In this document: positions 8,604 to 27,268 of the stretch, one piece after another
Layout: each line of letters starts with the position of its first letter
Position numbering within the stretch: position 1 is the first letter of the stretch
NCBI GenBank assembly: GCA_900318035.1
Contig: ONJC01000005.1
Coordinates: 1 to 64,000 of the forward strand
Length of the DNA: 64,000 bases
Reading direction: 5' to 3'
Source of the DNA: an uncultured Methanobrevibacter sp.
Lineage (GTDB): Archaea; Methanobacteriota; Methanobacteria; Methanobacteriales; Methanobacteriaceae
The notes under the pieces: generated by a model
The model's input: the letters and a program-made list of their open reading frames with translations, nothing else
Database searches by the model: none
What the model was told of the DNA's origin: nothing
Position numbers and translations under genes: made by a program

Positions 8604-8993
8604 ATGACTATGGATAGTGAAAAAATAGTCTGTCCGGTCGACAAGACTCTAAATCTGATTAACAAAAAATGGAGCATCCAAATTATAAGGGACATGTTCT
8701 TTGGAAAAAAGCATTTCAAAGAATTTAAAGAGGATAAACCAAAATTGTCAAATAAGGTATTATCAAATTGCCTTAAGGAATTGGAAGAAAATGGATTAAT
8801 TAGAAAGGAAGTTTTGAATACCACTCCAGTTACAACAGAGTATTATCTGACCGAATATGGCAAATCCATGAACAGAATCATCTATGAACTAGCCATGTTT
8901 ACACTGCAAAACGATGATGAACATTCTTACTCAGATGAGGTAAGAGATGACTTAAAAAATACGTTTAAAGAAAAACTAGAGATAAATGATTAA
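8604..8993 (+). CDS. HxlR/MarR-like winged-helix regulator
   Basis: A transcriptional regulator of 129 residues with the classic HxlR pattern: Cys10-Pro-Val near the N-terminus, then NKKWSIQIIRDMFFG, a winged-helix KLSNKVLSNCLKELEENGLI, and TTEYYLTEYGKSM. The N-terminal cysteine is the residue that senses reactive electrophiles or oxidants in characterised relatives such as HypR and YodB. The start could also be the Met at residue 3. It overlaps or abuts cbiE and is divergent from the macrodomain-sirtuin pair. A GTAACY repeat cluster lies in its promoter. The target genes are inferred only. Confidence 0.85.
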   Translation: MTMDSEKIVCPVDKTLNLINKKWSIQIIRDMFFGKKHFKEFKEDKPKLSNKVLSNCLKELEENGLIRKEVLNTTPVTTEYYLTEYGKSMNRIIYELAMFTLQNDDEHSYSDEVRDDLKNTFKEKLEIND

Positions 8994-8994
8994 A

Positions 8995-9633: not shown

Positions 9634-9722
9634 GAATATTTACCCTTAAAATTCATTTTAAAAGTCATTTACCATTTAATTTTAAAATTAAAGTTCATAT
9701 ATCTCATAATACATACTTTAAG

Positions 9723-9748
9723 TGTTAATTTAAAGAGAAAAATTAACA
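9723..9748 (+). promoter_or_regulatory. Leader hairpin upstream of the adhesin-like gene
   Basis: TGTTAATTT (9723-9731) and AAATTAACA (9740-9748) form a perfect nine-base stem with an eight-base loop, 6 bases before the probable ribosome binding site AAGGTAG. A TATA-like CATATATCTC lies near 9694, so the hairpin should fall in the mRNA leader. It could act as an operator palindrome or an mRNA stability element. Confidence 0.4.
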
Positions 9749-9763
9749 TTTAAGGTAGATATT

Positions 9764-12634
9764 ATGAATAAAAAAATAAACGCCATATGTTTTATTTTCA
9801 TATTGCTCTTTTTAATTTCAGCCGTTAGTGCATCAAACAGTGAAAATGAAACATTACAGCAAATTCAACCAGATTATCAAAAAGATTTAAGTACCGTTAA
9901 TGTTGAAAATAGCGGAACGGAAAATATAGAAAAATTAGGGGAAACGCAGGAAATCGAAAAGAAAAAGGTCACATTGACAGCGCCTGACGTCAAAATGCAT
10001 TATAATGACGGAAGCAAATTTACTGCAATGCTGAAGTACAAAAAGAAAGTGATTGGCAATGCAAAAATACAAATTCAAATTAATGGCCAAACATTCACAA
10101 AAACAACGGACAGCAAGGGAAAGGCATCAATAAATCTCAATTATAAAAGCGGAACATACCATGTTTTAAGCATTTGCAAGGGAAACGATGAATTTGAAGG
10201 CGCAACAACCAAAAGCACAGTGACGATTAAAAGCACAATAAAATGCAGTGACTTTTCAAAATACTATAAAAACAATGCAAAATACTCATCCACATTTTAT
10301 GACAAAAAAGGAAAGCCTCTAAAAAATACTGCAGTCAAATTCAAACTGGATAAGAAAATATACACTGTTAAAACCAATTCAAAAGGTATTGGAAAGTTGA
10401 CCATAGACTTGAAACCCGGAAAATACAGCATTTTGATTACAAATCCAAAAACATCGGAATCAATAACAAAAACCGTTACAGTAAAATCATTGATTGAAAC
10501 TAAAGATCTGACGTTGACTGAAAACAAAAAGGCAAAATTCAACATAAAAATTCTAAACAGCAACGGAAAGGCTTCACCCAACAAAAAAGTTACAATAAAA
10601 CTGAACGGCAAAACCTACACCAAAACAACAGACAAAAACGGAATTGCGAGACTGAACGTTAATTTGGAATCTGGAAAATACACAGTGACAACACAATATG
10701 GAGGACTGAGCTCAAAAAACAAAATAACTGTAACTAAAGTAATCAAAGCTACTAAATTTACGCACACCACATTAATTCCAGACTACGTTAATGTTACCTG
10801 GACTCATGTAGCTGAAAATTCTGCCTACTCGCTTAAAACAGGATTAAACGGAATTATAAAAATGCCTAAAAATGAGATTTTTTCCGTAAATATTGGTGAT
10901 AAAAGCTATTTGTTTTCAAATACGAAAATAAGTGGAATAAATTCAACAGTGATAGGCTATAAGAGTCATTTGATACCTTTTGATGGAAGCGAAGTGAAAA
11001 ACGATAAAAATAGAAGCAATCTGAAAGACAATGGAATAGTCATTTCAAGATTAAAGGGTTTTACTCAAATCGATTACCAGTCAAACACCAATGACAATAT
11101 AGAGCTTTTTGGATTTTATGCAGATAAAGGCCCAGAACATAGCGAAAGATTAAAATATATGCAAAATGACAAAATTACTGCAACAGTGACATTTTACACC
11201 CACAGTTATGATGAACTGGGTTTGAAATACAGTTTGGGAAAATTTTATCAAAAAACAATATATGATTTTGACTACAAAAGCTATGACGAAATAACAAAAC
11301 ACAATACCGGCTCAATACGGTTTACAAATACAAACACGTCAGTGACATTCAGCTACTTTGGAAATAGCATTGTAGGATATCAATCAAAAGAGAATATAAT
11401 TACCAAATTTAAGATTAACGGACAGGAAGACCTTGTAAAACCAGAAACCATCAGTTACGGTCTTGGTGAAAAATACAGGAAAACTTTGGGTTTTGAAGTG
11501 CTGCAGGCATATTCCATCATTAATGAAAAAGTTACCCGAGACATTTTAAAAACATGGGTTGGGAAAAATAAGCTTTATTTAGACAGGTTTGGCGTGATGA
11601 ATGTTTACGGAATGCATCTTGCCAACCTTGAAACTGCCTGGCTTGCCGATAAGGTGGCTGATGAATACACATCCCAATTTGATGTCAGCTGGAAAAGAGA
11701 CCATACCGTGACAATATTAGGCGGAATAAATCTTGAAGACACATATTTGAATGTTTTGAATGCAGATATGGGAATGGAAGTTGAAGGAAGTGCAGACAAT
11801 GTTGTCTCATTCAGATTTATGAATTCCCTGCAGTTGCCTAATCTGGAGGAATACAGTCTGGAGGAAGTTGCAACACGATTTTGGAATTTTACAACAAATT
11901 CACAGGACAACATGTACAATGCCATACACAACAACAAAACCAGCATTGCAATATTGGGAGATATGATGTACATACTTGCAGAGGACGGAAGCTCTTCAGC
12001 AATCATCGTCAATACCACAAATGGAGTCGCAAGTGTCATTCATTCACACAACCATGCAACATACAAGGGCGCATCGATAGCTACCACCAGCGATTGCTGC
12101 AGTGTTGGAACAATACCGAAGGACATCATTTCAGGAATCAATAATGCTTTAAACATGTTTTCACCAGTAGAATCCAAATTAACTGAATTGTTAAATGAAA
12201 TTCATCCTATGAGCAAAATGGCTTATAAAACCTTGTCGTTTCTTGGCGGGAAAGTCCTGAAAGGCATTACAAAAGCCGGATTGAGCATTTTAGGAACTAT
12301 GGTTTTCATACAGCAAACAGGTGTAGACATCAGGACCGAATATTTTGATGATAAGGACTGGCATAGATTAATGGACACAGTTACATTTACACGGCCGGGA
12401 TACAACCAAAACAAAAAAATATACAATATCCCAAACAATAAGGGTGGATACGATTACATTGAAGTTGAAATCAATAAAGACCTCAGTTTAAATAGAAATA
12501 ACGCAATATATATTAGTGACGGACAAACAAAGAAACTGACAAAAGCTGAAACCTACAAATATTTCAGTGATGAAACATGGACCCCGTTTAATGTACCTAC
12601 AAAATATTGGGATGAAAGCTGGAGGGGGAAATAA
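9764..12634 (+). CDS. Secreted adhesin-like protein with Ig-like repeats
   Basis: An exported protein of 956 residues with an N-terminal signal peptide (hydrophobic core about 6-22, cleavage near AVSA). Three Ig-like repeats of the kind common in methanobacterial adhesin-like proteins lie at about 62-165, 165-242 and 243-328; each has a D-x-x-G-x-A/G turn followed by LxSGKY or KPGKY. The remaining 620 residues are unlike the repeats and I do not recognise them. They include a hydrophobic stretch at about 830-850 (LGGKVLKGITKAGLSILG). There is no clear C-terminal anchor, so it is either secreted, held by pseudomurein binding, or anchored by the internal hydrophobic segment. The ribosome binding site is AAGGTAG. 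Two small membrane-protein genes follow immediately. Confidence 0.75.
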   Translation: MNKKINAICFIFILLFLISAVSASNSENETLQQIQPDYQKDLSTVNVENSGTENIEKLGETQEIEKKKVTLTAPDVKMHYNDGSKFTAMLKYKKKVIGNAKIQIQINGQTFTKTTDSKGKASINLNYKSGTYHVLSICKGNDEFEGATTKSTVTIKSTIKCSDFSKYYKNNAKYSSTFYDKKGKPLKNTAVKFKLDKKIYTVKTNSKGIGKLTIDLKPGKYSILITNPKTSESITKTVTVKSLIETKDLTLTENKKAKFNIKILNSNGKASPNKKVTIKLNGKTYTKTTDKNGIARLNVNLESGKYTVTTQYGGLSSKNKITVTKVIKATKFTHTTLIPDYVNVTWTHVAENSAYSLKTGLNGIIKMPKNEIFSVNIGDKSYLFSNTKISGINSTVIGYKSHLIPFDGSEVKNDKNRSNLKDNGIVISRLKGFTQIDYQSNTNDNIELFGFYADKGPEHSERLKYMQNDKITATVTFYTHSYDELGLKYSLGKFYQKTIYDFDYKSYDEITKHNTGSIRFTNTNTSVTFSYFGNSIVGYQSKENIITKFKINGQEDLVKPETISYGLGEKYRKTLGFEVLQAYSIINEKVTRDILKTWVGKNKLYLDRFGVMNVYGMHLANLETAWLADKVADEYTSQFDVSWKRDHTVTILGGINLEDTYLNVLNADMGMEVEGSADNVVSFRFMNSLQLPNLEEYSLEEVATRFWNFTTNSQDNMYNAIHNNKTSIAILGDMMYILAEDGSSSAIIVNTTNGVASVIHSHNHATYKGASIATTSDCCSVGTIPKDIISGINNALNMFSPVESKLTELLNEIHPMSKMAYKTLSFLGGKVLKGITKAGLSILGTMVFIQQTGVDIRTEYFDDKDWHRLMDTVTFTRPGYNQNKKIYNIPNNKGGYDYIEVEINKDLSLNRNNAIYISDGQTKKLTKAETYKYFSDETWTPFNVPTKYWDESWRGK

Positions 12635-12835
12635 ATGAAAATTATTGATTCTTTTAAAAAGCAACCAAGAACAATACAGATATTGGACATCGTATTCGTC
12701 ATATGTCTCATATATGAATTTGTCCTGATAATGTTCGACAAGCAGCTCAATGCATCAATGTCACTGCTGATGCTGTTTATAATCTTTGCAGTTACCATTC
12801 ACGGATTAGGCAGGGGATTTGATGAACCGGACTGA
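12635..12835 (+). CDS. Small membrane protein
   Basis: A 66-residue protein with two predicted hydrophobic helices (about 15-33 and 42-60) and a charged N-terminus. The ATG follows the adhesin stop directly, with GGAGGGGG as ribosome binding site just upstream inside the adhesin gene, so the two are translationally coupled. No family was recognised; an accessory role for the adhesin (export or anchoring) is possible from position only. Confidence 0.6.
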   Translation: MKIIDSFKKQPRTIQILDIVFVICLIYEFVLIMFDKQLNASMSLLMLFIIFAVTIHGLGRGFDEPD

Positions 12836-13172
12836 AACCATATTTTTTATAGCTGCAACAATATTGCTTTTGATATGCGTATCCACAATGCTTGAGTATT
12901 CATTCATATTCATTTTCATGTTAGCTCTGGCCGCAATAGTCATAATAATGTCACTTTTTTCAAAATATAGTGCAAAACATGAAAATGAAAAACTATCAAG
13001 GATATTCTGCATCCTGGGAGTAATTGTTTTTGCAGCATATCTTATAAATTCTGTTTATGCTGACTTTACAGGCAATGAACCTGCAATTGATGGTTTGCTG
13101 CTTGTAACGCTATTTATCATTGCAATGGGCTTAGGATGGTTTTTTGAAGAAAAAAAGATTGAGTTAAAATAA
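12822..13172 (+). CDS. Small membrane protein
   Basis: A protein of 116 residues with four hydrophobic helices (about 6-22, 26-46, 62-80 and 92-110). The ATG at 12822 overlaps the end of the preceding small membrane gene and has CAGGGG upstream, so it is preferred to the adjacent in-frame TTG. The protein ends in a lysine-rich tail. No family was recognised. It is the last gene of the adhesin group and ends in a perfect hairpin. Confidence 0.6.
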   Translation: MNRTETIFFIAATILLLICVSTMLEYSFIFIFMLALAAIVIIMSLFSKYSAKHENEKLSRIFCILGVIVFAAYLINSVYADFTGNEPAIDGLLLVTLFIIAMGLGWFFEEKKIELK

Positions 13173-13195
13173 TTAATTTATTTTAACTTATTTTA
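13162..13195. terminator. Bidirectional hairpin terminator
   Basis: AGTTAAAATAA (13162-13172) and TTATTTTAACT (13178-13188) form a perfect eleven-base stem with a five-base loop. The left arm contains the stop codon of the small membrane gene, and a T-rich tract follows on the plus strand up to 13200. It separates the plus-strand adhesin group from the convergent Get3 gene. Confidence 0.6.
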
Positions 13196-13200
13196 TTTTT

Positions 13201-14319
<1,119 letters not shown>

Positions 14320-14446
14320 TTATTATTTAAAAATTGTTTTAACATGGAAAATGTATGAAAAGACAACAACCACAAAATAACATACCAAGTATTCTATAAC
14401 TACAAGATTCAGAAAATAGGTAAAACTATTTAGAATTAGCAGATAT

Positions 14447-14644
14447 GCCTCAAAATTATTAGAAGGTAAAAAACCAAGATTGATTGATGAATATCAAGTA
14501 GCACCAGTCCCATGGGACACCATAAGAACAAAAATAGACAATGCTTTTCGTCACACATGTATTAATGAAGCTGCATTTTATCAGATGAAATTGTCATTTC
14601 TAGAAGACCTAGGAGAATCAAGAAAATTTTTGGAATTAAACTAG
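14447..14644 (+). pseudogene. Remnant of a DUF4143-type AAA ATPase
   Basis: An open stretch without a usable start encodes LLEGKKPRLIDEYQVAP followed by PWDTIRTKID. This is the segment after the Walker B region of the widespread AAA ATPases with a C-terminal DUF4143 domain. The P-loop part upstream and the rest of the protein downstream are missing, and the frame ends at an early TAG. The whole 14285-14892 stretch otherwise holds no gene. I read it as a deletion relic. Confidence 0.6.
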
Positions 14645-14892
14645 AACATTCAAGAAATAGAGAAAATCAAGAATTTAAATATTTAGTATCTGAAATTACA
14701 CAAGCAATTGATGAATTAAAGACGAGTGATTTTATATTATGAGTCAGTCCATTGAACAACTACCAGAAATTAATGTGCTACTACATCATATCAATCCAAC
14801 CGAAAAGAGAGTCTTCTATAAAGTATTTCCTTTATGCGACTTTTATATTGCTTTGTTCATATATTATAATAAATTTATATAGGGGTAAAATT

Positions 14893-15255
14893 ATGGACTT
14901 AGCAAGAACATTGGGTCATACTATTGGTGCGATTTTTTGGATTGTAATAATAGCGCTTATTCTTGCTGCAATTGTACACTTTATTTTAACAGACAACATC
15001 ACAGCAGTATTAATATTTTATATCATAATCGCACTGTTTCCACGCATTTTAACACAAATTGCTGATACAAAGTCATCAGCAATTGTTGGATCAATTTTAG
15101 CCATAACGGTTGTGTATTTAATAATCACTTTCATTTTCCCAATAATCTTTGGTCAAAATATTGGTTTTCCATATTCAATGTTAGGCCTGGGGCCTTTTGT
15201 CACCGGTTTAATTGTTTCAATATTGGTAGATTTAATTTCAGTTTCGACATTATAA
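14893..15255 (+). CDS. Small membrane protein flanking the chaperone operon
   Basis: A very hydrophobic protein of 120 residues with four predicted membrane helices. The ATG at 14893 follows AGGGGT, so I reject a longer frame that starts 141 bases upstream in relic sequence. The C-terminal half (FGQNIGFPYSMLGLGP then TG and LIS) aligns by eye with the protein at 26882-27268, so the two small membrane proteins bracket the operon at 15314-26743. No known family was recognised. Position suggests a membrane partner of the chaperone system. Confidence 0.65.
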   Translation: MDLARTLGHTIGAIFWIVIIALILAAIVHFILTDNITAVLIFYIIIALFPRILTQIADTKSSAIVGSILAITVVYLIITFIFPIIFGQNIGFPYSMLGLGPFVTGLIVSILVDLISVSTL

Positions 15256-15313
15256 GCAATATTTTGCATACAAGATATTTAATAGAATAATTGGCATAAT
15301 TGTGAGGTAAAGT

Positions 15314-17608
15314 ATGGTTAGATTATCAAAATGTGTTTATTTAGCATGGGAATTAGGTTCTGCCGAAGCAGCCCACCTTAAACAGGAATTTTTCACTGAA
15401 GATGAGCTGTTAATTGGCATTTGTAGTTTGGAAAAGATGGTATTTTTAATCAAAGAGAATAAAATTAATTTCGATGAGGAATATGCAGAGAACATTAACA
15501 TTGAAAATGAAGAAATACAGGAGTTTTTCAATAAATTTAATATGAATACCTCTTCCATTAGAAGAGGAATACGCAAACTAAAAGGTAAAGGGAATAATAA
15601 CTCTGAAGGACAGATGTCCAGATCAGATTCATGCAAAGCAATTTTTAATGATGCCGAAAGCATTGCAGAAAGTATAAACAGCGATGAAGTTCGTTGCATT
15701 CATTTTTTAAAAGCAATATTTAACAAGCCTTCTGACATTATTAAAACTTTTTTTGAAGAGAATGACGTTGAATTTGAGGAATTAAAAACTAATTTGGATA
15801 TAAAACAGGAATCAAAAAAATTAAAATTATCATCCAATAGCATATTAGTCAAATATGGGACAAATTTAACCGAACTGGCGAAAGAAGGTAAATTAACCCC
15901 AGTTATCGGCAGAGATGATGAATTATTACAGGTTGTTAGAACTTTAAATAAGCGTAAAAAGAATAATCCATTAATTATAGGCGAACCAGGGGTTGGTAAA
16001 ACCGCACTAGTTAACGGTTTAGCCATAAAAATCATTGATGGGAGCATGAAGGATTTTTTAAAGGATAAGCAAATAATTGAAATTAATATGGCTTCCTTAG
16101 TTTCAGGAACCAAATATCGTGGTGATTTTGAAGAGAAAATAACAAAACTTGTTAAAGAATCAAAGGACAATCCGGAAGTAATCCTATTTGTAGATGAAAT
16201 TCATACGATGTTGGGTGCAGGTTCCAGCAGCGGAAGTTTGGATGCATCAAATATTATCAAGCCCGCATTAGCAAATGGAGATTTGGTAATGATAGGTGCA
16301 ACTACATTGCAGGAATATAGGAAATACTTTGAAACAGACCCTGCATTTGAAAGGAGATTCCAGCCAGTGATATTGGATGAGCCTACACCTGAAGATACCA
16401 TATCCATTCTCAAAGGTTTAAAGGAAAACTATGAAGAATATCATAAGGTTAAAATTTCTGATGAAGCCATTGAAGCGGCAGTCAATTTATCTGTAAGATA
16501 TATTCCGGACAGAAACCTTCCGGATAAGGCACTGGATGTAATTGATGAGGCATGTTCTCGTAAACTCATTCCTAAATTGGATATAACAAATTCTTTGAAT
16601 ATAGAATCGGTTGTTAGTGAAGAAGATGTTAGAACAGTCGTGTCCGAATGGACGGGAATTCCAATTTCCGACGAATCTTCCCAGTTAGAAAAAGCGCAGA
16701 AAATTGAAAGCTTCTTAAAATCCAAGATAATTGGTCAAGATCAGGCTATTGAGAAGGTTTCAAGAAGAATTAAAAACTCATATGCAGGCATTAATAATCC
16801 TGAAAAGCCTATTGCAGTATTTTTATTTTTAGGTCCGACCGGTGTTGGAAAAACATTTTTCTCAAAAACCTTAGCCAAATTCCTGTTTGGAAGCGAAAAG
16901 TCATTGATTAGGGTTGACATGTCAGAATATAAAGAAGAACATTCAATTTCCAAATTAATAGGTGCTCCTCCAGGCTATAAAGGCAATGATGAAGGCGGAT
17001 TTTTAACAAATGCAATTAAAAACAATCCTTATTCAATTGTTTTATTAGATGAAATTGAAAAAGCACATCCAAAAATATTTGACGTGTTTTTACAGGCATT
17101 TGATGAGGGAAGGCTGACTGACGGTAAAGGAAACACCGTTAATGCAAAAAATTGTATTTTTATCATGACTTCAAACATCCAACTTGAAACAAACCAGGAT
17201 TACAATGTTGCATTTGGAGGAACACAAGAGGATATGAACACATTAAATGTTTTGGACAATTTAGCTCAAGTAATGAGGCCTGAGCTTGTAAACAGAATAG
17301 ATGACGTGATAATTTTCAACTCTCTGACAAAGTCAGACCATGAGTCTTTAGTAAAATTATATGTGGATGATTTATCCCAGCGCATTTTAGATGAAAAGAA
17401 TATTGTAATTAGCGTTAAAAAATCAGTTTACAAATTTTTGGCAAGTAAAGGATACAATGCCAATTTCGGAGCAAGATATCTTAAAAGAACTGTTGAAAAA
17501 CTTGTCGAATACCCGATTTCAGATATGATCGTCAACCGTGAGGTAAATAGTGGAGATACAATTGTCATTTCAGCAGGACGAAGCGATTTAAAATTTAAGG
17601 TTATGTAA
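15314..17608 (+). CDS. Hsp100 (Clp/ClpB-type) AAA+ unfoldase
   Basis: A double-ring AAA+ protein of 764 residues. Residues 1-165 carry two weak Clp N-domain repeats. The first ATPase domain has Walker A GEPGVGKTA at 223 and Walker B ILFVDEIH at 290; the second has GPTGVGKTF at 507 and IVLLDEIEKAHP, with a C-terminal NFGARYLKR helix. Only a short linker separates the two ATPase domains, so the long ClpB coiled-coil middle domain is absent and the layout is closer to ClpA/ClpV. A clear ClpP-binding loop is not seen. The ribosome binding site is GAGGTAA. It heads a run of seven further same-strand genes with short gaps, including a kinase and Hsp70 parts, so it is probably not the housekeeping disaggregase. 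Confidence 0.9.
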   Translation: MVRLSKCVYLAWELGSAEAAHLKQEFFTEDELLIGICSLEKMVFLIKENKINFDEEYAENINIENEEIQEFFNKFNMNTSSIRRGIRKLKGKGNNNSEGQMSRSDSCKAIFNDAESIAESINSDEVRCIHFLKAIFNKPSDIIKTFFEENDVEFEELKTNLDIKQESKKLKLSSNSILVKYGTNLTELAKEGKLTPVIGRDDELLQVVRTLNKRKKNNPLIIGEPGVGKTALVNGLAIKIIDGSMKDFLKDKQIIEINMASLVSGTKYRGDFEEKITKLVKESKDNPEVILFVDEIHTMLGAGSSSGSLDASNIIKPALANGDLVMIGATTLQEYRKYFETDPAFERRFQPVILDEPTPEDTISILKGLKENYEEYHKVKISDEAIEAAVNLSVRYIPDRNLPDKALDVIDEACSRKLIPKLDITNSLNIESVVSEEDVRTVVSEWTGIPISDESSQLEKAQKIESFLKSKIIGQDQAIEKVSRRIKNSYAGINNPEKPIAVFLFLGPTGVGKTFFSKTLAKFLFGSEKSLIRVDMSEYKEEHSISKLIGAPPGYKGNDEGGFLTNAIKNNPYSIVLLDEIEKAHPKIFDVFLQAFDEGRLTDGKGNTVNAKNCIFIMTSNIQLETNQDYNVAFGGTQEDMNTLNVLDNLAQVMRPELVNRIDDVIIFNSLTKSDHESLVKLYVDDLSQRILDEKNIVISVKKSVYKFLASKGYNANFGARYLKRTVEKLVEYPISDMIVNREVNSGDTIVISAGRSDLKFKVM

Positions 17609-17617
17609 GGTGTTACA

Positions 17618-19252
17618 ATGAATCATGATGAAGTAAAACGCATGGTCGATGAGTTTTTCAGAGGCCAGTATGAAATAGAGAAATTTTTAGGTGCAGGCGG
17701 TTTTGCAGATGTTTTTCTTGTTAAGCACATTTATTTAAACGACCGCCGTGCAATGAAAATTAATAAGCAGCCTTTACCTTCAAAAGATATTGACAATATT
17801 TTTAAAGAGGCGAGAATTGCTACTTTAATTAGACATAAAAATGTTATAAGCATGCATGATGCAGGAATCATATCCGTTTCGGGAAAAGACAAAAATGGAC
17901 TTTTTAATTTTGGTTTAAAAAACAGGCGTGATAAAAATTATGCATATTTTGTTATGGAATATGTTGTAGGTGGAGATTTATGGGAATATTGGAAATCCTT
18001 TGAAAGTCAGGATAAAGTAATGCCGATAATTGAAGTTTTAGACATTATGAAACAGATTGCAATGGGTTTGGATGTTTTACATAATAATAAACCTAAAATC
18101 CTTCACAGAGACATTAAACCTCAAAATCTTTTAATGAAAATAGAGGATGGTAAACCACTTATAAAAATCACAGATTTCGGTTTGGCAAGTGCAAAAGATA
18201 GTGACAAGTCATTTGATAATTTATCAGTTGCAGGAACACCCCTTTATATGGCTCCTGAATGTTTCAAAAAGAATTTTTCACCAATGAGTGATATTTATGC
18301 TGTCGGAGTCATATTTTATCAGTTGCTGACAAATCAGTTCCCTTATGACATCATGCGTTTTGATATGGGAGACATGTTTTATGGAAAACCGTGGGAAAAT
18401 AAATTAAAACCCCCAAGCAACTATAATTCAGAAATTCCTCAAAAATTAGATGAAATTGTCATGAAATGTTTGGACGTCAATCCCAGAAAAAGGTATACTA
18501 GTTCAGGCCAACTTTTAAGAGTCATCACCGATTACATGGAAGATGAAATGGGCATAGATGAAACAACCATGATTTATACTTCTGAAATTTCCTCTTCCGG
18601 TTCTATTGATGATGTTGATGAGGGAGAAATTGTCGAACCTGATTTCAGTGAAAGTATGGAAGATTTATTAGCTGAAGCGTTCAGACTGGCAAAACAGGAA
18701 AATAAACTGGAAGAGGCTATTGAAATTCTTGAAAAAGCCATCATTAACAACATTGACGTGCGTGAAAAATACACATATCGTCTCAGATTATGGAAGGATG
18801 AAATGCCTGACGAATCATTGATAAAAGAGGCATTTAATGTATACAGTCAAGTTAATCCAAACTATATCCTTGCATGCGATCTTTTAGAAGAAGCTATTGC
18901 ATATAATCCAAAAATTGCCAGCAAATATGAAGGTTACACAACATTATGGCCGATATTATCAGAATTATCTGAAAATAAAAATATTGACGAGGCAGTTAGT
19001 CTTTTAAATGATTTGATGGAAGAATATTCATATATCAATGAAATGTATGAACCATTCATGGATATTTTAAATAGACATGATGTCGATGAAATTGTTAATG
19101 AATCATTGAAATTAATTAAAAAATACAAATGGGATGATTCCAAAAAAATTGAAGTTGCCAGATTGATGGAATTTGCTGTTCTAACAGATGATGATGTTAA
19201 AGATAAATATTCCGTCAAATTGTCTTTATGGAAACGTGGTTTATCAATGTGA
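17618..19252 (+). CDS. Hanks-type Ser/Thr protein kinase with C-terminal helical repeats
   Basis: A eukaryotic-like kinase of 544 residues with every key element: glycine loop GAGGFADV (25-32), the lysine in RRAMKI, HRDIKPQN (163-170), DFG (186-188) and MAPE (211-214). It should therefore be active. After the kinase domain (to about 310) a Thr/Ser-rich linker (TTMIYTSEISSSG) could be autophosphorylated. Residues about 345-540 are helical TPR-like repeats, suiting substrate or scaffold binding. No transmembrane helix is seen. It lies 9 bases after the Hsp100 gene and 10 bases before the J-like gene. Likely targets are proteins of the same operon (inference). Confidence 0.92.
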   Translation: MNHDEVKRMVDEFFRGQYEIEKFLGAGGFADVFLVKHIYLNDRRAMKINKQPLPSKDIDNIFKEARIATLIRHKNVISMHDAGIISVSGKDKNGLFNFGLKNRRDKNYAYFVMEYVVGGDLWEYWKSFESQDKVMPIIEVLDIMKQIAMGLDVLHNNKPKILHRDIKPQNLLMKIEDGKPLIKITDFGLASAKDSDKSFDNLSVAGTPLYMAPECFKKNFSPMSDIYAVGVIFYQLLTNQFPYDIMRFDMGDMFYGKPWENKLKPPSNYNSEIPQKLDEIVMKCLDVNPRKRYTSSGQLLRVITDYMEDEMGIDETTMIYTSEISSSGSIDDVDEGEIVEPDFSESMEDLLAEAFRLAKQENKLEEAIEILEKAIINNIDVREKYTYRLRLWKDEMPDESLIKEAFNVYSQVNPNYILACDLLEEAIAYNPKIASKYEGYTTLWPILSELSENKNIDEAVSLLNDLMEEYSYINEMYEPFMDILNRHDVDEIVNESLKLIKKYKWDDSKKIEVARLMEFAVLTDDDVKDKYSVKLSLWKRGLSM

Positions 19253-19262
19253 GGTGTAATTA

Positions 19263-20861
19263 ATGGATATTGATGAAAATATTTATAAAACTAATGGTTT
19301 TAGAATACTGGGTTTGGACATAACAAGTAAAAACAGAAAAATTGACAACAGAATTTCTAAAATCGACAGATATAGGGAGAGAAAAAATTTTAAGGACACT
19401 GAACCTTTAAAAGGGGTTTTTAAAAATTCAAACATGGATTTTTTATTGCCCGTTTCGCCCGAACCATCATATAATGAATATCAACAAGCAAAAAATAGAT
19501 TATCTAATGTAGAATCTCGATTAATTGATGAAATATTTTGGTTTTGGCCCAAATCTTTTGAAGATAATTTAGATGAAGAAATTGTAGGTTATTTAAAAGA
19601 ATCTAAATATAATAAAGCAATTTCATATTGGAATGATACATCTTCAACAAATACTATGAATATGACTTCAATTCACAATTTGGCCATATTATACCATGTT
19701 AGAGCAATGGATGGATTTATTGAAGGCAAAGGAAATAAAAATTTATTCGAAGATTTAGAATTAGCTTTAAATTACTGGTCCCAGATAATCGATTCAAATA
19801 AATTTAAGGATTTTGTTAAGCAAAGGGTTGCTTCTTTAAAAGATCCTAGATTGACTGAAGAGTTTGTTGATGAAACATTTGAGGAATTGCCATATAATTT
19901 ATTGAATATTAATTATTTATTTATTAAAAAACATCTGGATTCACCAACTGTTGGTAAAAGGAAGTTGGATTACATATCCAAATTCATAAATAGTATTCAA
20001 AATTCACCATTTGACAAATCAGTCACTACCAAAGTTTCTTCTAAAATAATCCATATTCTTGAAAATTTAATTAATGAAGACAGAGACTCATTTGCAAGAT
20101 CATTTGAAACAGCAGAGGATAATGAGAAATATGATTTATTATTCGCATATAGTGATGAAATAATGCCATACTTGTCAGTATTGTATGATTTGAAAAATGA
20201 CACATTTGCTAATAACTTATTAAATAATACCTGCCGATTCATTTATAATAAAATTCCAACTAAAGAAGCATTACTTTTTTTCAAATTACTAAATGAATCT
20301 CAATTCAATGATTTTATTGATCTTCTTAAATCATTAGAAGAAAAAACAACTGATTCAGGATTAAAAAGTCAAATAAATGAAGATATTTCTCTTTTAACCC
20401 ATATTAATGATGAAACTCCTGTTGAAACTGAAACAGAGACAAATGATGAAATTGAAAGCGTAAAAACCGAAGATATTGAAAATGTGGAAAATGAAGTATC
20501 TCAAACCACTGCAAATGTTGAAATATCCGTTAAAGATGGAAACAGCAATAACTTAATTAGTAATGTAACGTTTACCAATTCTGAAACTGGTGAAAAATAT
20601 GAATATAATACAAGTCTTTCAGGTTCTAATACTTTAAATAGTATTCCGATAGGCAGATACAGATATAAAGTAGAAAAACCAGGCTATGAAAACTATGAAA
20701 GCACAATAACCTTTGATGAAGGTCAGAATAGATTAGATATAAAACTTAATGAAATAAAAACTCAAACATCTGAATCCTCATATAATAAAAAATTCGTTAT
20801 TTTCGTAGCAGCCATAATTTTTGCATCATTAGCCTATTACGCCGCAACTAATTTATTATAA
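19263..20861 (+). CDS. J-like protein with a PEGA-like domain and C-terminal membrane anchor
   Basis: This protein has 532 residues. The N-terminus (NGFRILGLDITSKNRKIDNR, then a segment ending DEIFWFW near residue 99) resembles the degenerate DnaJ-like domains that sit beside bacterial Hsp70 paralogues. I see no HPD motif, so stimulation of Hsp70 by the standard route is uncertain. The middle is helical, perhaps TPR-like. Residues about 420-500 form a beta-rich PEGA/carboxypeptidase-regulatory-like domain (VEKPGYENYEST). The last 25 residues are one hydrophobic helix, so the protein is tail-anchored with the bulk in the cytoplasm. It would hold the chaperone complex at the membrane. Confidence 0.65.
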   Translation: MDIDENIYKTNGFRILGLDITSKNRKIDNRISKIDRYRERKNFKDTEPLKGVFKNSNMDFLLPVSPEPSYNEYQQAKNRLSNVESRLIDEIFWFWPKSFEDNLDEEIVGYLKESKYNKAISYWNDTSSTNTMNMTSIHNLAILYHVRAMDGFIEGKGNKNLFEDLELALNYWSQIIDSNKFKDFVKQRVASLKDPRLTEEFVDETFEELPYNLLNINYLFIKKHLDSPTVGKRKLDYISKFINSIQNSPFDKSVTTKVSSKIIHILENLINEDRDSFARSFETAEDNEKYDLLFAYSDEIMPYLSVLYDLKNDTFANNLLNNTCRFIYNKIPTKEALLFFKLLNESQFNDFIDLLKSLEEKTTDSGLKSQINEDISLLTHINDETPVETETETNDEIESVKTEDIENVENEVSQTTANVEISVKDGNSNNLISNVTFTNSETGEKYEYNTSLSGSNTLNSIPIGRYRYKVEKPGYENYESTITFDEGQNRLDIKLNEIKTQTSESSYNKKFVIFVAAIIFASLAYYAATNLL

Positions 20862-20879
20862 TTTACAGGAGTGTTAATT

Positions 20880-21689
20880 ATGAGTGAAAATCCTCTTAAT
20901 TCTGTTAAAGGAATATTTAATAGAAATCCAAAGCAAAACAATAAAAAAAACAATAAGGTTTTACATGCTGAAAAACACAGACCTAATTTAAAAAATCAAA
21001 ATGTAAATCTGAAAAATAAAAATGTAAAATTAAATCCTAAACAGATAAAAAAAGTAAAACAGATGCAAGCTAATCCAAATACTGGTGAATTATCCGAAAT
21101 GGATGCAGTGCTGATGAAACGTATGCGAGAAATTGAAAATGTTGTCGGCAAACTTGTTGCAGACATTCAATACCTGGATTCAAAAAATCCTGCCGTTTCA
21201 TCAAAAATGACAGGAATGTTAATTGAAATGATAACTAATCTTTGGGTAATAGGAAACATAGCAATTAATTATCAGGAAAACAATCAACTGACCATTTTAG
21301 ATAATTATTTATCAAATCAAGAGCAAAAATTATTAAAATTTATGGAAAATCCGAAGGCAGATGCTTTAAAAATTAAAAATGATTTGAATGAAATAAAAAT
21401 GTGTAAAAAGATTGTTAATGATTCATTGCGCCCAATAAACTCTACAGTTGAATATTATAATATTTTAATGTCCAAATTGTCAAATTGGGGATTTGAAATT
21501 AAAAATCCGATAGGTCAAAAGTATGATGCACATATGGACATTGATGTTTTAGCTTTTGAAGATGCAAATCCCAATTATAAAGAACCTACTATTACAGAAA
21601 CTAAAAAACCTGAAATTTATTTCAATAATAAAAAAATTTTAAAAGCACAAGTTGTTGTAACAAGAGCTGGTGCAATAAATAAAGATTAA
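20880..21689 (+). CDS. GrpE-like nucleotide exchange factor (divergent)
   Basis: A soluble protein of about 269 residues. The first 60 are lysine/asparagine rich and probably disordered. The middle is helical. The C-terminal region has LSNWGFEIKNPIGQKYDAH and later a KILKAQVVV strand, which match the layout of the GrpE beta domain (G..FDP..HEAV and the final LRPA-V-V strand). The gene directly before an Hsp70 supports a nucleotide-exchange role, but similarity is weak. The start is ATG 20880, behind AGGAGTG, rather than the GTG nine bases upstream. Confidence 0.6.
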   Translation: MSENPLNSVKGIFNRNPKQNNKKNNKVLHAEKHRPNLKNQNVNLKNKNVKLNPKQIKKVKQMQANPNTGELSEMDAVLMKRMREIENVVGKLVADIQYLDSKNPAVSSKMTGMLIEMITNLWVIGNIAINYQENNQLTILDNYLSNQEQKLLKFMENPKADALKIKNDLNEIKMCKKIVNDSLRPINSTVEYYNILMSKLSNWGFEIKNPIGQKYDAHMDIDVLAFEDANPNYKEPTITETKKPEIYFNNKKILKAQVVVTRAGAINKD

Positions 21690-21703
21690 AATGGTGAAAC
21701 AAC

Positions 21704-24211
21704 ATGTCAAACAACTCCGAAGAATTTAGAACAAAAACTGTAGATTTTGGAATTGATTTAGGAACAACAACTTCTATTATTGCTCACTGTGAAGGAAATG
21801 ATACTCCAATTATTCCTAATTTAATCAGTAATAGAAACTTTACTCCATCCGCAGTTGCTATTGATGAAGATGGCAATGCCCTTGTTGGTGAAGCAGGTAA
21901 AAGACAAACCTTATTTGATCCGGATAATGCAGCCGCCGAATTTAAACTTAATATGGGTATGAATAAAAAATATTTCTTCAAAGATTCAGGAAAGGAAATG
22001 TTACCTGAAGAATTATCTGCTGAAGTCTTAAAAGACTTGAAGAATTCTGTTTATAAACAATTAGACATGAAAGTTAACTCCGCTGTAATTACTGTCCCGG
22101 CTGATTTTGGACCTATTCAAAATAAAGCAACAAAAAAAGCTGCTGAACTTGCAGGATTTAAATTTACTCCGATTATAATGGAACCTGTTGCAGCAGCTTA
22201 TGCATATTCTAATGCATCCAATGAAAATGGTACCTGGCTAATTTATGATTTGGGTGGAGGTACTTTTGATGTGTCTATTGTTAAATTAGAAGATGAAGAA
22301 TTTGAAAATTTAGCCCATTCCGGTGATGAACATCTAGGTGGAAATTTAATTGATTGGGACATAGTTTATAAGATTTTTGCAAAAAAAGTTTCTGATGATT
22401 TAGGTCTTGATGATTTCAATAAAAAGAATGTAGACAAATATAGAAAAGCATTTGCTAAACTTAAAGGTGCTGCTGAAGAGGCTAAAAAAGATTTATCCGG
22501 AACTGATAAGGCAAAAATTTTTGTTGATAGTTTATTAGTCCATGATAATGAACTTTATGATTTCAAGTATACTTTAACAAAAGAAGAACTTGAAGAAATT
22601 ATGCAATCCTACATTAAAAGAACAATCAATCATTGTAACGATGCAATGAAAAAAGCTAAATTGACAACAAATGACATTGATTATATTATTCTTGTTGGAG
22701 GCTCAACTCTCAGTCCGGTAATACGTGAAAGTCTTGAAAAAACATTCAATATTCCTTTAAAATATGATATCGACCCAACTACAGTTGTTGCAAGAGGAGC
22801 AGCACTATTTGCAGGAACTATCCCTGACCCACATATTGAAATTCCATCAGGCAAGTTTGGATTGAAATTAGATTATGTTGCTACAGGACCACTTGATGAA
22901 GAATTTTTTGTTTCAGGTGAAGTTTTATCTGATAAAGTCGATGATTTTTCAGGTTTTGCTATTGAAGCAATAAATATCAAAACTAAAAGGAGCACCGGAA
23001 AAATTTCAGTTGAAGATGATGGCTTTTTTGAATTTGAGTTAATGCCTGAAGATGAAACAAACAGGTATTCAATTAGTTTATATGATTCTAGTGGAAGTTT
23101 GGTTGAGCTGGATGAAAATTCCGCTAATGCCATTGAATACACTGTAGGATTTGAACAACAAATTATTTTACCACACACATTAGGCCTGGGATTATATGAT
23201 GATACATTATTTATTTTAGCTAAAGAAGGGTCACGTTTACCTTATCATAATATGTCACCGTTTAAAACAACTGCAGAGGTTACAAAAGATGATGAAAATA
23301 GTTTTATATCAATGCCATTGTATAATGGTACTGCAAAAGTGGCATCCAACAATGAAAAAGTTGGAGAATTGTTGATATCCGGTGCAGATGTTCGAAAAAC
23401 TATTTTGAAAGGCAGTGAAATCACTATTACAGTAGACATTGACAAGTCAAGAGTCATGACGTTTGATGTTAATGTTTTAGATATTGGTCAGACATTTGAT
23501 TTTGAAATTGATCCAAGTATTCAAAAATTCACTTTTGATGAGGTAAATAACAAATTTATCAAGGCCAAAAGTGATTATGAAAGTATTAAATTAAAATGCA
23601 GTACTGAAAACATTAATGAAGAAATTGAATCATATTTAGCACAAATTGAAGAAGAAAATATCATAGAAAATATTAATGGATTCTTAGAAAGTGCAGAAAA
23701 TGATGAAGGTGCCCTTAATCAAGCAAATAAACTTATTAACAAATTAAATGAAATTTTAAATAACATAACTAAGTATTTTGATAATAAAAGTGAAATTGAA
23801 GAAGTTTTAAATCTTCGGGAAGAAGTTAGGGATTTGGTTAATGCTAATGGAACTAAAGAAGAAGAAGATGAATTTGAAAACCTTTCAAGACAATTAGATG
23901 AAGCTATAGAAAATGAAGATTCCTTTAAAATAGATCAAATTAAAAATTCTTTATTAGGACTTAAAGCCAGTTGTATTGATGATCCTGTTGAGGAACTTAA
24001 AAAAGCATTGTTGTATTTGATGATGTTTGCCGAATATCGAGATGAAGATGCATCATTAGTCAGTGATTTAAAACAGCAAGCAAGTGATGCTTTAAATAAT
24101 GATGATGTTCCTCAAATGGCAAATGTTGCGCAAAAACTAATGAATCTTGCAATAATAGATAATGGAGGTGAACCTCCTTTCGGAGGCAGAGGAGGAGTAG
24201 ATGAATTATAA
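21704..24211 (+). CDS. Divergent Hsp70 family chaperone
   Basis: This protein has 835 residues, about 200 longer than DnaK. The actin-like ATPase motifs are intact: GIDLGTTTS (16-24), YDLGGGTFD (about 181-189) and LVGGST (about 330-335). The substrate domain is poorly conserved and is followed by an extra acidic coiled-coil region (about 600-800) and a glycine-rich tail GGEPPFGGRGG. It does not end in the EEVD-like or acidic tail of the housekeeping protein. Neighbouring GrpE-like and J-like genes suggest a dedicated Hsp70 cycle distinct from the general DnaK system. The ribosome binding site is GGTG. Confidence 0.9.
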   Translation: MSNNSEEFRTKTVDFGIDLGTTTSIIAHCEGNDTPIIPNLISNRNFTPSAVAIDEDGNALVGEAGKRQTLFDPDNAAAEFKLNMGMNKKYFFKDSGKEMLPEELSAEVLKDLKNSVYKQLDMKVNSAVITVPADFGPIQNKATKKAAELAGFKFTPIIMEPVAAAYAYSNASNENGTWLIYDLGGGTFDVSIVKLEDEEFENLAHSGDEHLGGNLIDWDIVYKIFAKKVSDDLGLDDFNKKNVDKYRKAFAKLKGAAEEAKKDLSGTDKAKIFVDSLLVHDNELYDFKYTLTKEELEEIMQSYIKRTINHCNDAMKKAKLTTNDIDYIILVGGSTLSPVIRESLEKTFNIPLKYDIDPTTVVARGAALFAGTIPDPHIEIPSGKFGLKLDYVATGPLDEEFFVSGEVLSDKVDDFSGFAIEAINIKTKRSTGKISVEDDGFFEFELMPEDETNRYSISLYDSSGSLVELDENSANAIEYTVGFEQQIILPHTLGLGLYDDTLFILAKEGSRLPYHNMSPFKTTAEVTKDDENSFISMPLYNGTAKVASNNEKVGELLISGADVRKTILKGSEITITVDIDKSRVMTFDVNVLDIGQTFDFEIDPSIQKFTFDEVNNKFIKAKSDYESIKLKCSTENINEEIESYLAQIEEENIIENINGFLESAENDEGALNQANKLINKLNEILNNITKYFDNKSEIEEVLNLREEVRDLVNANGTKEEEDEFENLSRQLDEAIENEDSFKIDQIKNSLLGLKASCIDDPVEELKKALLYLMMFAEYRDEDASLVSDLKQQASDALNNDDVPQMANVAQKLMNLAIIDNGGEPPFGGRGGVDEL

Positions 24212-24229
24212 AATAAACACTTTATTTTA
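24209..24229 (+). terminator. Intra-operon hairpin starting at the hsp70 stop codon
   Basis: TAAAATAAA (24209-24217) and TTTATTTTA (24221-24229) form a perfect nine-base stem with a three-base loop, starting exactly at the TAA stop. No T-tract follows; a GAGG ribosome binding site for the next gene comes 3 bases later. It could be a partial terminator or processing site that lowers expression of the phosphatase and later genes. Confidence 0.4.
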
Positions 24230-24244
24230 ATTCCGAGGATTTGT

Positions 24245-25009
24245 ATGATTGAAGATAAATTTATTCAATTACCTGCAAAAGGCCGCTTATTAATCGTGAC
24301 TGATTTGCATGGAGATTTGCAAGATTATGAAAAATATATTGATTTATGGGACTGTGATAATCCAGAAAATCATTTAGTTTTCGTAGGAGACTTTATTCAT
24401 TCCACTGATGAGAATGATGGTTCTATAGAAATAATAGATGATGTAATTGATAAATTTAATAAATATCCTAATTTCCATCCACTTTTAGGCAATCATGAAT
24501 GGAGCCATATTGCTGGAAGTCCTGTTTTTAAGGGATTTAACAATCAGACACAGGATTTTGAAGATTTGATAATACAAAAAAAAGGTTCTCTTGAACCATA
24601 TTTGTCAGATTATATTGAATTTTTCAAATCCATGCCTTTTTTTGTTCAGACAGAAAACGGACTGTTTATATCCCATACAGGACCTTCAAGATTTATCTAT
24701 GGCATGAATTCATTTTATAGTATTTTCAATAATGATTTCAATAATGCCATTTTGCATGACTTTTTATGGAATCGTTATGGTAATGATTATTTAATGGAAG
24801 ATGTTGATAATTTTTTAAGCATTATCAAATCTAAATGTATGGTTGTCGGCCATACCGTTGTTGATGGATATTTTGAGTATGGTAATCAATTAATTTTATC
24901 ATCTAGCTTTGGTTCGTATAATAAAGCTTATCTGGATATTGATTTATCAGTACCTATAAACAATATGGAAAATTTAATAGACAATATAAAATTTATTCAA
25001 GGCGAATGA
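24245..25009 (+). CDS. PPP-type Ser/Thr phosphatase (calcineurin-like)
   Basis: A 254-residue protein with the binuclear-metal motifs of PPP phosphatases: DLHGD (20-24), GDFIH (48-52, in place of the usual GDxVDRG), GNHE (82-85) and MVVGHT near residue 200. Size and motif order match bacterial and archaeal PrpA/PP1-like protein phosphatases better than nucleases of the same superfamily. Beside a Hanks kinase it is the natural antagonist, reversing phosphorylation of the chaperone proteins (inference). The ribosome binding site is GAGG; the gap to the next gene is 10 bases. Confidence 0.82.
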   Translation: MIEDKFIQLPAKGRLLIVTDLHGDLQDYEKYIDLWDCDNPENHLVFVGDFIHSTDENDGSIEIIDDVIDKFNKYPNFHPLLGNHEWSHIAGSPVFKGFNNQTQDFEDLIIQKKGSLEPYLSDYIEFFKSMPFFVQTENGLFISHTGPSRFIYGMNSFYSIFNNDFNNAILHDFLWNRYGNDYLMEDVDNFLSIIKSKCMVVGHTVVDGYFEYGNQLILSSSFGSYNKAYLDIDLSVPINNMENLIDNIKFIQGE

Positions 25010-25019
25010 GGTGTAAAAT

Positions 25020-25361
25020 ATGAATTTAACTGATTTTAATAAGACTATGGGAATGCAATCCCTGTTCGGTGCAATTGTTATGTTTATTATAGCTATATTC
25101 TTAAGATGCTATAGTGTAGCATATTTTGGAATTGGCTCTGATATCAGTTCGCTAATCTGCTGCGTACTGGGTGGAGTGACATTAATCATCGCTTTTGATT
25201 ATTATAACAACGGAGCGGTAGAAAGACCATTTGGACTTATCCCATTATATCTGACAGGGATTATACTGGGAGCAATTATCTACTATTTGGTAATTGCAAA
25301 TATTCCGCTGGATTTCCTGACACAGGTTCAAAGTTTTTTAAGAATTGAAGCGGTGAGATAA
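25020..25361 (+). CDS. Small membrane protein of the chaperone operon
   Basis: A 113-residue protein with three to four hydrophobic helices (about 15-33, 40-60, 70-92) and a short amphipathic end. GAGGTG precedes the ATG. It does not align obviously with the two flanking small membrane proteins. Position between the phosphatase and the metalloprotease genes suggests a membrane part of the same system. Family unknown. Confidence 0.65.
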   Translation: MNLTDFNKTMGMQSLFGAIVMFIIAIFLRCYSVAYFGIGSDISSLICCVLGGVTLIIAFDYYNNGAVERPFGLIPLYLTGIILGAIIYYLVIANIPLDFLTQVQSFLRIEAVR

Positions 25362-25390
25362 ATTTAATTTTATCTTTTTTTGGTGAGAAT

Positions 25391-26743
25391 ATGGACAATG
25401 AATCATTATTTAAACGAGCTATCCGGCATATGGACTCTAAAAATTATGCAAGGGCTATTGATTATTTTAAGGTTATTCTTTCAGAAGATAAAAATAATGA
25501 TGATGTTTGGGTATTATTAGGGTTATGTCAAACTAAAGCAGATGAATTTGACAAGGCATATATGTCATTTAACAATGCTTTGAAAATAAACAGCAAAAAT
25601 TCATTTGCCTGGAGCGGGAAGGCATATTTGCTATTTTTAGCAGGCAAATATGAAAAAGCTTTACTTTATTGTGATTTTGCCTTAAATTTTTGCCGTGAAA
25701 ATGAAATGGCATTGATGATTAAGAAAAATATAGGAGATGTTGAAAACAGTGCCTATAAAAAAGATTTCCCACATGAGAAATTTGACATTGACAACATTTT
25801 AAACTCATTTAAAAGTCATAAACATGGCTCCGGTGATTTTGATTTCGTTGATTTAAATAAAAATGAAGGTCCCACAACAGTTTCAGATTTAAATGAATTT
25901 GAAAATATATTCACTAAAAAAAGAATTAAATTATTAAAAGACAATCCTTTAACTGTTGATGAGTACAATAACATATTAAACAGAATTAAACAGGCAGGAT
26001 TAACCAATTTTAATGAGATGATTGAGGAGCACAATATAGATCTCTCAGAAATTAGTATTTTTAAAAAAATCAGCCTAATGGCTTTATCTTATACAGATAT
26101 TGAGTATAAAACCAAAGGAGCCGAACATGGCAGCTTTGCATTTAATGTCATTCGGGTTGACGATAGGTTGGATGAATCAAATCAGATTTCAACTCTCATT
26201 CACGAATTGGCACACTATATCTTTAATGAAATATTTACACAATCGTTGATGTATATCTGGAACAGTGATAAAACAGATGCTATCGAAGCCATTTCCATCT
26301 ATTCAATTTCCAGAAGCAAATCGTATAAATTAATGAACGAATATTGTGCCCATACAGTTCAGGGAAGGTTTTTGCCATTCGGATATCAAAACTATGGATC
26401 ATTTAATATGTTACTTAAGGGATTTGACCCTAAAAAGGATAAAAAGAGAGTCAAAACTTATTTAAAATTGGGAAATAGTTTTGCTGAAGACATAATTTTA
26501 ATTTTAGAGAAATTTATTTCTAAAAATTGGAGAAGTGAAATTAAGGAACAATTTAAAAAAGATTTCACAAATCCTCCTAATTATGATGGCATTTTATTAG
26601 AAACAAAGAAGACCGTTCCAGCAGAAGATATTGTGAAAACCATTAATAAAATTTTGACAAAAGGACTCATCAATATAATTGAAAATGATGATGTTGAAAT
26701 CATCCAGAAGTATAAAAAAGAATATGAAAAACTATCTCATTAA
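25391..26743 (+). CDS. TPR protein with an HExxH metalloprotease-like domain
   Basis: This protein has 450 residues. Residues about 5-115 are tetratricopeptide repeats (NDDVWVLLGLCQTKADEFDK and two further units). The second half contains HELAH at 271-275 and, further on, EYCAH near residue 317, which together could supply two histidines and a glutamate for zinc. It therefore looks like a zincin-type peptidase, although no named family is recognised. TPRs could dock onto chaperone or kinase. It is the last gene of the run before a 138-base spacer. A catalytic role is likely from the motif but not certain. Confidence 0.65.
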   Translation: MDNESLFKRAIRHMDSKNYARAIDYFKVILSEDKNNDDVWVLLGLCQTKADEFDKAYMSFNNALKINSKNSFAWSGKAYLLFLAGKYEKALLYCDFALNFCRENEMALMIKKNIGDVENSAYKKDFPHEKFDIDNILNSFKSHKHGSGDFDFVDLNKNEGPTTVSDLNEFENIFTKKRIKLLKDNPLTVDEYNNILNRIKQAGLTNFNEMIEEHNIDLSEISIFKKISLMALSYTDIEYKTKGAEHGSFAFNVIRVDDRLDESNQISTLIHELAHYIFNEIFTQSLMYIWNSDKTDAIEAISIYSISRSKSYKLMNEYCAHTVQGRFLPFGYQNYGSFNMLLKGFDPKKDKKRVKTYLKLGNSFAEDIILILEKFISKNWRSEIKEQFKKDFTNPPNYDGILLETKKTVPAEDIVKTINKILTKGLINIIENDDVEIIQKYKKEYEKLSH

Positions 26744-26881
26744 CTTATTGAAAGGTTTGACAATAGTGATTTTGATTAAAAATATGAACATTTAACTTAA
26801 TTTTTATATAACCTAAATATTATGCTTTATATCACTTTTATACTAGTAATAACATAATCATAATAAAAAAGGGGGCAAAAT

Positions 26882-27268
26882 ATGTCAAATGCATCAAGTG
26901 CAGTAGTTAGAATTGTCATAACACAAATAATAGCAATAATCGGTGGATTAATCTTAGGTGCAATAGCTCATTTCCTATTTGGAGATTGGGGGTTAGCAAT
27001 ATTTGTTGTATATATCCTATTGGGTTTTGCTTCTGGAGGACCAACAATTACAGATATCAGTTCCGCTTCTGTTTTAATCATTAGTTCAATCATTAGTTCA
27101 ATTCTTGTTTTCCTGATAATGAGTAAGTTATTAGTGATTGCTTTCGGTCCCGCATTTACCTATTCAACATCTGTTGCAGGTTTAAGTCCGACCATTACAG
27201 GCATATTAATTACAATAGTATTAGGATTAATTTCAACACACATGGTTAAATTTTTAAATAATGTTTAA
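26882..27268 (+). CDS. Small membrane protein, paralogue of the one at 14893
   Basis: A 128-residue protein with four hydrophobic helices. A shared pattern of FG, then YS, then GLxPxxTG and LIS links it to the protein at 14893-15255. A strong AAGGGGG ribosome binding site and AT-rich TATA-like sequences in the 138-base spacer suggest its own promoter. A decayed copy of its 3' end follows at 27305-27436, so this gene type is prone to duplication. Function unknown. Confidence 0.65.
   Translation: MSNASSAVVRIVITQIIAIIGGLILGAIAHFLFGDWGLAIFVVYILLGFASGGPTITDISSASVLIISSIISSILVFLIMSKLLVIAFGPAFTYSTSVAGLSPTITGILITIVLGLISTHMVKFLNNV

Follow-up and report, generated by a model that had tools for sequence, protein, structure and literature searches.

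Why would an archaeon keep an Hsp100 and an Hsp70 in one gene run with a protein kinase and a protein phosphatase? The question is raised by a 64,000-nucleotide stretch (the window) of an uncultured Methanobrevibacter sp. (contig ONJC01000005.1, assembly GCA_900318035.1), in which the original prediction had described eight same-strand genes at 15314 to 26743 with gaps mostly of 9 to 35 bp. All eight open reading frames were recovered at these positions on the forward strand, and the internal gaps, from the Hsp100 gene to the gene for a TPR/HExxH protein, are 9, 10, 18, 14, 33, 10, and 29 bp. Judged by sequence, the run is a complete, extra, co-inherited chaperone set, held with a kinase and a phosphatase in one conserved cluster. 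Here, we propose, at a probability of about 0.5, that it encodes a dedicated chaperone-unfolding machine gated by the kinase/phosphatase pair, with an exchangeable partner protein as its output. Below, G denotes a genome, L a locus, and C a contig of the source genome; the genome of the window is G000.

The cluster is linked far beyond chance. A profile of its J-like family matched 9 of 67 genomes of the genus and 14 of 152 of the phylum, all within one family. In each of the nine J-positive genus genomes, the Hsp100, kinase, J-like, GrpE-position, Hsp70, and PPP-type phosphatase genes stand in one order; a tenth cluster comes from a Methanosphaera record (L036). An Hsp100 of about 760 amino acids (aa) with two AAA domains was found in 9/9 J-positive versus 1/58 J-negative genus genomes (Fisher p, 2e-10), and the six proteins have correlated pairwise distances across the ten loci (rho, 0.67 to 0.93; Mantel p ≤ 0.004). 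Scattering of the genes in relatives, which the original prediction had named as the observation that would count against it, was absent from the 10 archaeal clusters; one complete genome has parts scattered. Canonical DnaJ and GrpE are encoded elsewhere in each of 20 relatives checked. Together with the double-AAA Hsp100, which occurs essentially only with the cluster, this supports the view that the machine is dedicated. Of ten genomes run against a kinase profile, five were complete or near-complete members of the genus without the cluster; four of these gave no match, and the fifth has only a long kinase of the kinase::Hsp70 fusion type described below. Flanking genes of the other archaeal clusters differ from those of the window, so the cluster occupies different sites in different genomes.

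A scan of a genome collection with the J family returned 29 loci. Bacterial loci in Lentisphaerae, Dehalococcoidia, Thermodesulfobacteriota, and Thiodictyon keep kinase-J-GrpE-Hsp70, to which those of Thermodesulfobacteriota add an Hsp100 and a DnaJ-TPR protein. The original prediction spoke of an archaeal system; the core also occurs in several bacterial phyla. No published description of the cassette was found in the open-licence literature, where absence is weak evidence. An origin in phages or plasmids was considered and rejected, as neither yielded a full-length J-family match and no viral contig was found. Two bacterial loci have fusions. In a Lentisphaeria metagenome-assembled genome (MAG) (L061, 5123 to 8701), a 1,192-aa fusion of a Clp-type AAA, an FtsH-type AAA, and an M41 protease directly precedes kinase-J, and a Vicinamibacteria MAG (L050, 6899 to 14440) encodes a 2,513-aa protein with the J-like N-terminal family joined to long HEAT repeats.

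Profiles confirmed the family calls for the Hsp100, kinase, Hsp70, PPP phosphatase, and TPR/HExxH protein. The Hsp100 (764 aa) matches TIGR03346 and TIGR02639 (E < 1e-200), under both equivalog cut-offs. It has Walker A and B motifs in both AAA domains, arginine fingers, and canonical pore loops; its D1-D2 linker is without the M-domain insertion, and it falls under the ClpB equivalog cut-off. At the ClpP-binding loop, AFGG stands where IGL is expected. ClpP-dependent proteolysis was rejected: a ClpP profile found nothing above 22 bits and nothing convincing in nine cluster-bearing genomes, and the 22-bit match in G000 was taken as chance or SppA-like. The kinase (Pkinase, E 3e-48) has its G-loop, HRD, DFG, and APE motifs intact. 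The Hsp70 matches PF00012 (E 1e-83) over its nucleotide-binding domain only, with phosphate and adenosine motifs that are intact and invariant in the family. Its predicted fold is that of full-length DnaK/BiP, including the beta part of the substrate-binding domain (6eof, TM-score 0.82 by target), and the DVLLLD interdomain linker is missing in all members tested, a domain of about 110 aa standing in its place. The phosphatase (Metallophos, E 7e-12) has PP1 catalytic subunits as its best solved relatives (E 5e-8). The earlier statement that catalytic motifs are intact holds for Walker, kinase, and Hsp70 motifs; in the phosphatase, TDLHG, GDFIH, GNHE, and VGH are conserved, but GDFIH stands for GDxxDRG, which is therefore incomplete. 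The TPR/HExxH protein combines TPR with Peptidase_M78 (E 1e-4) and has an intact HELAH in the window.

The two cochaperone calls fared less well. The J-like protein has no match to Pfam DnaJ (PF00226), and an alignment of 21 N-termini from the family shows no HPD; the N-terminus has an invariant DE-FWFWP. Profile comparison with DnaJ (hhalign) gave an in-register but weak alignment (P = 0.005). In a predicted model (pLDDT 84), short helices follow the J order at the N-terminus, ahead of a helical middle, a beta domain, and a transmembrane (TM) tail; Foldseek with this model returned no J domain. Without HPD, the protein is unlikely to stimulate Hsp70 in the canonical J manner, and it is better named a J-like scaffold. 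Nearly every full-length family member has a predicted TM segment near the C-terminus, in agreement with the proposed membrane attachment. The GrpE-position protein has no Pfam match in the window; a bacterial relative (L044) reaches PF01025 at E 1e-3, below the cut-off, and direct profile comparison with GrpE gave P = 0.3, which makes homology to GrpE marginal.

The partner genes come in variants. The TPR/HExxH gene is present in six archaeal clusters (window, G019, G085, G088, G062, and L036), with HEL[ATS]H conserved. Four clusters (G006, G028, G081, and G070) have instead an upstream TIR protein and a TPR protein, the TIR having been typed in G006, G028, and G070 and assigned in G081 by near-identity to that of G028. 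In the Hsp100 of the TIR variant (L020, L021, L063, and L064), D1 is intact and D2 is without the Walker-B Asp-Glu pair (EN or DN) and the arginine finger. The TIR variant carries an NEI motif, at what we take to be the position where TIR NADases have their catalytic Glu. TIR proteins of the same four loci run on into beta-helix (Chlam_PMP) repeats.

Elsewhere in the genome of the window, a sister system joins two of the components in one chain. Locus L022 (G000:C22, 2504 to 14923) reads RtcB-SIS-FHA/HTH-[kinase::Hsp70 ATPase domain]-PPP-RyR-RyR and is kept in about ten relatives. The fusion protein has 1,164 aa, and its Hsp70 part is without a substrate domain and has GTFN for GTFD. This single-chain fusion is the strongest evidence that kinase and Hsp70 work together; with the conserved gene order of the main cluster, it upholds the chaperone-kinase link of the original prediction. 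Beside the full cluster in G019 (L019, 1 to 2818) lie a PPP gene and a second Hsp70, broken into a pair of fragments, apparently a decaying copy of the sister system.

In the mechanism that we propose, Hsp70 at the membrane scaffold would gather clients (damaged or foreign proteins), and the kinase would read client load or the nucleotide state of Hsp70. Phosphorylation would permit client threading or partner release by Hsp100, with the phosphatase resetting the switch. The partner in the window is probably the TPR/HExxH protease, with the unfolded client or a regulator as its possible substrate; the TIR protein would take this part in other genomes. For the fusion version, the FHA/HTH neighbor may act as a phospho-reader (phospho-Thr-reader type). 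A stress or anti-invader response is the most likely role. Sequence does not separate the two: patchy accessory distribution (9/67 genus genomes) and exchanged partner genes lean toward defense, and intact chaperone chemistry leans toward proteostasis. More speculatively, and with considerable doubt, the cluster could represent an undescribed prokaryotic immune or stress class, in which the kinase reads the load of a dedicated Hsp70 (both being on one chain in one subtype), the PP1-like phosphatase resets, and Hsp100 and modular effectors (TIR, M78-type protease, and the RyR/RtcB set) are switched. If the kinase does read Hsp70 client load, this would be a self-contained prokaryotic unfolded-protein sensor with writer and eraser, plus a candidate phospho-reader in the sister system. 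Protein remodeling would then be tied to Ser/Thr phosphorylation in archaea, and Hsp100 and PP1-like phosphatases would join chaperone-gated conflict systems. To our knowledge, the targets of Hanks kinases in archaea are largely unknown; the kinase::Hsp70 fusion makes the load-sensing question directly testable in vitro.

Several observations weigh against a phosphorylation-gated machine. In three clusters (L037, L158, and L159), Hsp100-J-GrpE-Hsp70 stands with neither kinase nor PPP intact beside it, so the core does not depend on gating, and G014 has the long kinase with no PPP seen. With no M domain in the Hsp100, classical ClpB-DnaK hand-over is unavailable, and the J-like protein has no HPD. 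No PADLOC system model covers the cluster (kinase and Hsp100 match only the kinase or AAA models of other systems), no further defense genes are among the typed flanking genes, and the J family has no phage or plasmid copy. Finally, phosphorylation of any chaperone by the kinase is putative, as are the phosphorylation targets generally. Strict co-occurrence of kinase and PPP, hinted at by the three clusters without both, was rejected: it is weakened by G014 and by G138, one of the genomes with these clusters, where both lie 30 to 35 kb from the chaperones. Neither was found in the genome of another kinase-less cluster, G123. The chaperones form the core, and kinase and phosphatase are an add-on that is usual without being obligatory. 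At kinase-less L158 (14843 to 19900; a complete genome), a TIR-RyR fusion and an RyR protein are divergent from the Hsp100/Hsp70 cluster.

The intact catalytic chaperone parts, together with an Hsp100 that is otherwise missing in these archaea, would also suit a horizontally acquired, phosphorylation-tuned quality-control set: an unfoldase/disaggregase of bacterial type that would serve gut methanogens under heat or envelope stress, with neither effector nor defense role. The TM anchor suggests membrane proteostasis, and kinase-less versions exist; set against these are the swapped TIR/protease neighbors, the patchy distribution, a second AAA active site that the TIR variant has lost, and the missing M domain for Hsp70 cooperation. 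We consider this explanation rather improbable. An antiviral or antiplasmid system, with the chaperones as sensors of viral proteins and the TIR or metalloprotease as executioner, would account for the NEI motif at the presumed NADase position, the TIR-RyR neighbor in L158, and the patchy accessory distribution, and Hsp70-bearing conflict systems have been published (PMC7159879, PMC11090510). With the typed window flanks consisting of housekeeping genes and holding no other defense genes, we consider it unlikely.

More unlikely still is an assembly chaperone for a large complex (RNA polymerase or a surface machine) that is not a stress sensor. Its support comes from genus g23, where rpoA2 and rpl30e of the RNA-polymerase operon enclose the kinase-less core and extra copies of RNA-polymerase subunits occur; g23 is the sole genus with this context, and no RNA-polymerase genes are among the typed window genes. 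That chance neighbors or the relic of a type VI-like (ClpV) locus were found here is scarcely credible. In type VI secretion, the ClpV Hsp100 is encoded with the Hanks kinase PpkA and the phosphatase PppA, and the window Hsp100 does match TIGR03345 (ClpV), more weakly than ClpB/ClpA. Conserved neighborhoods refute both forms of this explanation, with the order kept in 10 clusters and in bacteria, the co-varying distances, and the fusion. Unlike type VI loci, moreover, the window has PPP rather than PP2C, as well as Hsp70, J-like, and GrpE-position proteins. No Tss structural or other secretion genes are among the typed cluster and flanking genes, as the original prediction had noted, and a type VI/ClpV remnant was rejected.

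Side observations concern the polymerase context. L159 (G123, 2292 to 19682) and L161/L038 (G125) have a kinase-less Hsp100-J-GrpE-Hsp70 cluster inserted in the RNA-polymerase operon, with rpoA2 on one side and rpl30e on the other. RpoA2 there carries a long insertion, an acidic repeat, with a second RpoA2-like copy behind it. An RpoB'-type gene stands before Hsp100 in G125.

Like DnaK-DnaJ-GrpE with ClpB, the window has an Hsp70, an Hsp100, and two proteins in cochaperone positions; unlike it, the window has no M domain, HPD, or DVLLLD linker, and it does have a beta domain inserted in its Hsp70 and a kinase and phosphatase in the operon. The closest known systems are the Hsp70 conflict systems (PMC7159879) and CoCoNuTs (PMC11090510). 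Kaur et al. 2020 (PMC7159879) describe GTPase-centered conflict systems with Hsp70/GrpE/DnaJ genes and another theme of kinase, PP2C, and vWA. Their GAP1-N2 GTPase systems resemble the window in clustering a dedicated Hsp70, GrpE, and J/TPR protein; they are GTPase-centered and mainly actinobacterial and firmicute, whereas the present cluster is archaeal and broadly bacterial and has Hsp100, PPP rather than PP2C, a protease or TIR, and no GTPase seen. No GAP1-N2 GTPase was found among the ten typed window-cluster genes or in a small sample of ten proteins from several bacterial J loci. CoCoNuTs of types II and III (PMC11090510) include an Hsp70 (CnuD) and a TerY-P kinase/phosphatase, and so share with the window an Hsp70-like protein in a system class with a Ser/Thr kinase and a protein phosphatase. 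Their Hsp70 ATPase is degenerate and accompanied by McrBC, helicase, and nuclease parts, whereas the window Hsp70 keeps its ATPase motifs and the typed genes include neither McrBC nor a nuclease. In the portions of PMC7159879 and PMC11090510 covered, neither type of system shows Hsp100, a PPP enzyme, or the present gene order.

Coordinates are given in Table 1. The presence of a three-TM gene (14893 to 15255) before Hsp100 in four of six clusters of the window type (window, L019, L065, and L066) suggests that the unit probably starts at 14893. G+C in the cluster region is about 0.27 to 0.35, below most of the window.

Table 1. Features of the chaperone-kinase cluster and its borders, in window positions
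Feature	Position	Strand	Basis or remark
Candidate operator, palindrome ATAAAG-N6-CTTTAT	14818..14835	+	57 bp 5' of ATG of first gene
3-TM protein m1, opens operon (probable)	14893..15255	+	TM prediction; 5' of Hsp100 in window, L019, L065, L066
Hsp100, ClpA-like architecture without M domain	15314..17608	+	Intact in both AAA domains and in the pore loops
Hanks-type protein kinase with C-terminal helical region	17618..19252	+	PF00069, E 3e-48; catalytic motifs intact
J-like scaffold	19263..20861	+	J-topology N-terminus without HPD, helical middle, CarboxypepD/PEGA-like beta domain, C-terminal TM anchor
GrpE-position protein	20880..21689	+	C-terminus GrpE beta-wing-like; alternative start GTG 20871; GrpE homology marginal
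Hsp70	21704..24211	+	ATPase domain intact; extra beta domain (~110 aa) inserted ahead of the substrate-binding one; C-terminus helical
PPP-family (PP1-like) phosphatase	24245..25009	+	PF00149; best PDB relatives PP1, E 5e-8; motif check
Small 3-TM protein	25020..25361	+	TM prediction and neighborhood comparison
TPR + M78/IrrE-like HExxH metalloprotease	25391..26743	+	Likely partner/effector of window variant; HEL[ATS]H in 6/6 orthologues
4-TM protein m2, m1 paralogue	26882..27268	+	138 bp downstream; probably outside transcript

Typed flanks of the cluster are housekeeping genes, e.g., Get3/ArsA ATPase, UbiB, and LeuS. A functional link between the tail-anchored J-like protein and the adjoining Get3/ArsA gene (13201 to 14295) was considered; with no homologue in the flanks of other clusters, the adjacency was taken as coincidence. 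Between this gene and the operon, 14410 to 14745 holds an apparently decayed coding sequence, possibly an insertion relic.

The palindrome ATAAAG-N6-CTTTAT, which is perfect, occurs once in the window (0.01 expected), and its longer form, TTCTATAAAGTANNNNCTTTAT, is found again ahead of the orthologous first gene in both L065 and L066. Scans for sigma-70 promoters and terminators were uninformative, the host being an archaeon. The motif CTATAAAGTA-N4-CTTTAT has five sites in the genome at no more than one mismatch, versus none for the reversed control: 14818 to 14835 in the window and G000 C22:59617, C23:77990, C23:125467, and C31:33031. Judged by motif matches, these sites are possibly a regulon; at least two of the others lie directly upstream of secreted or membrane-type genes.

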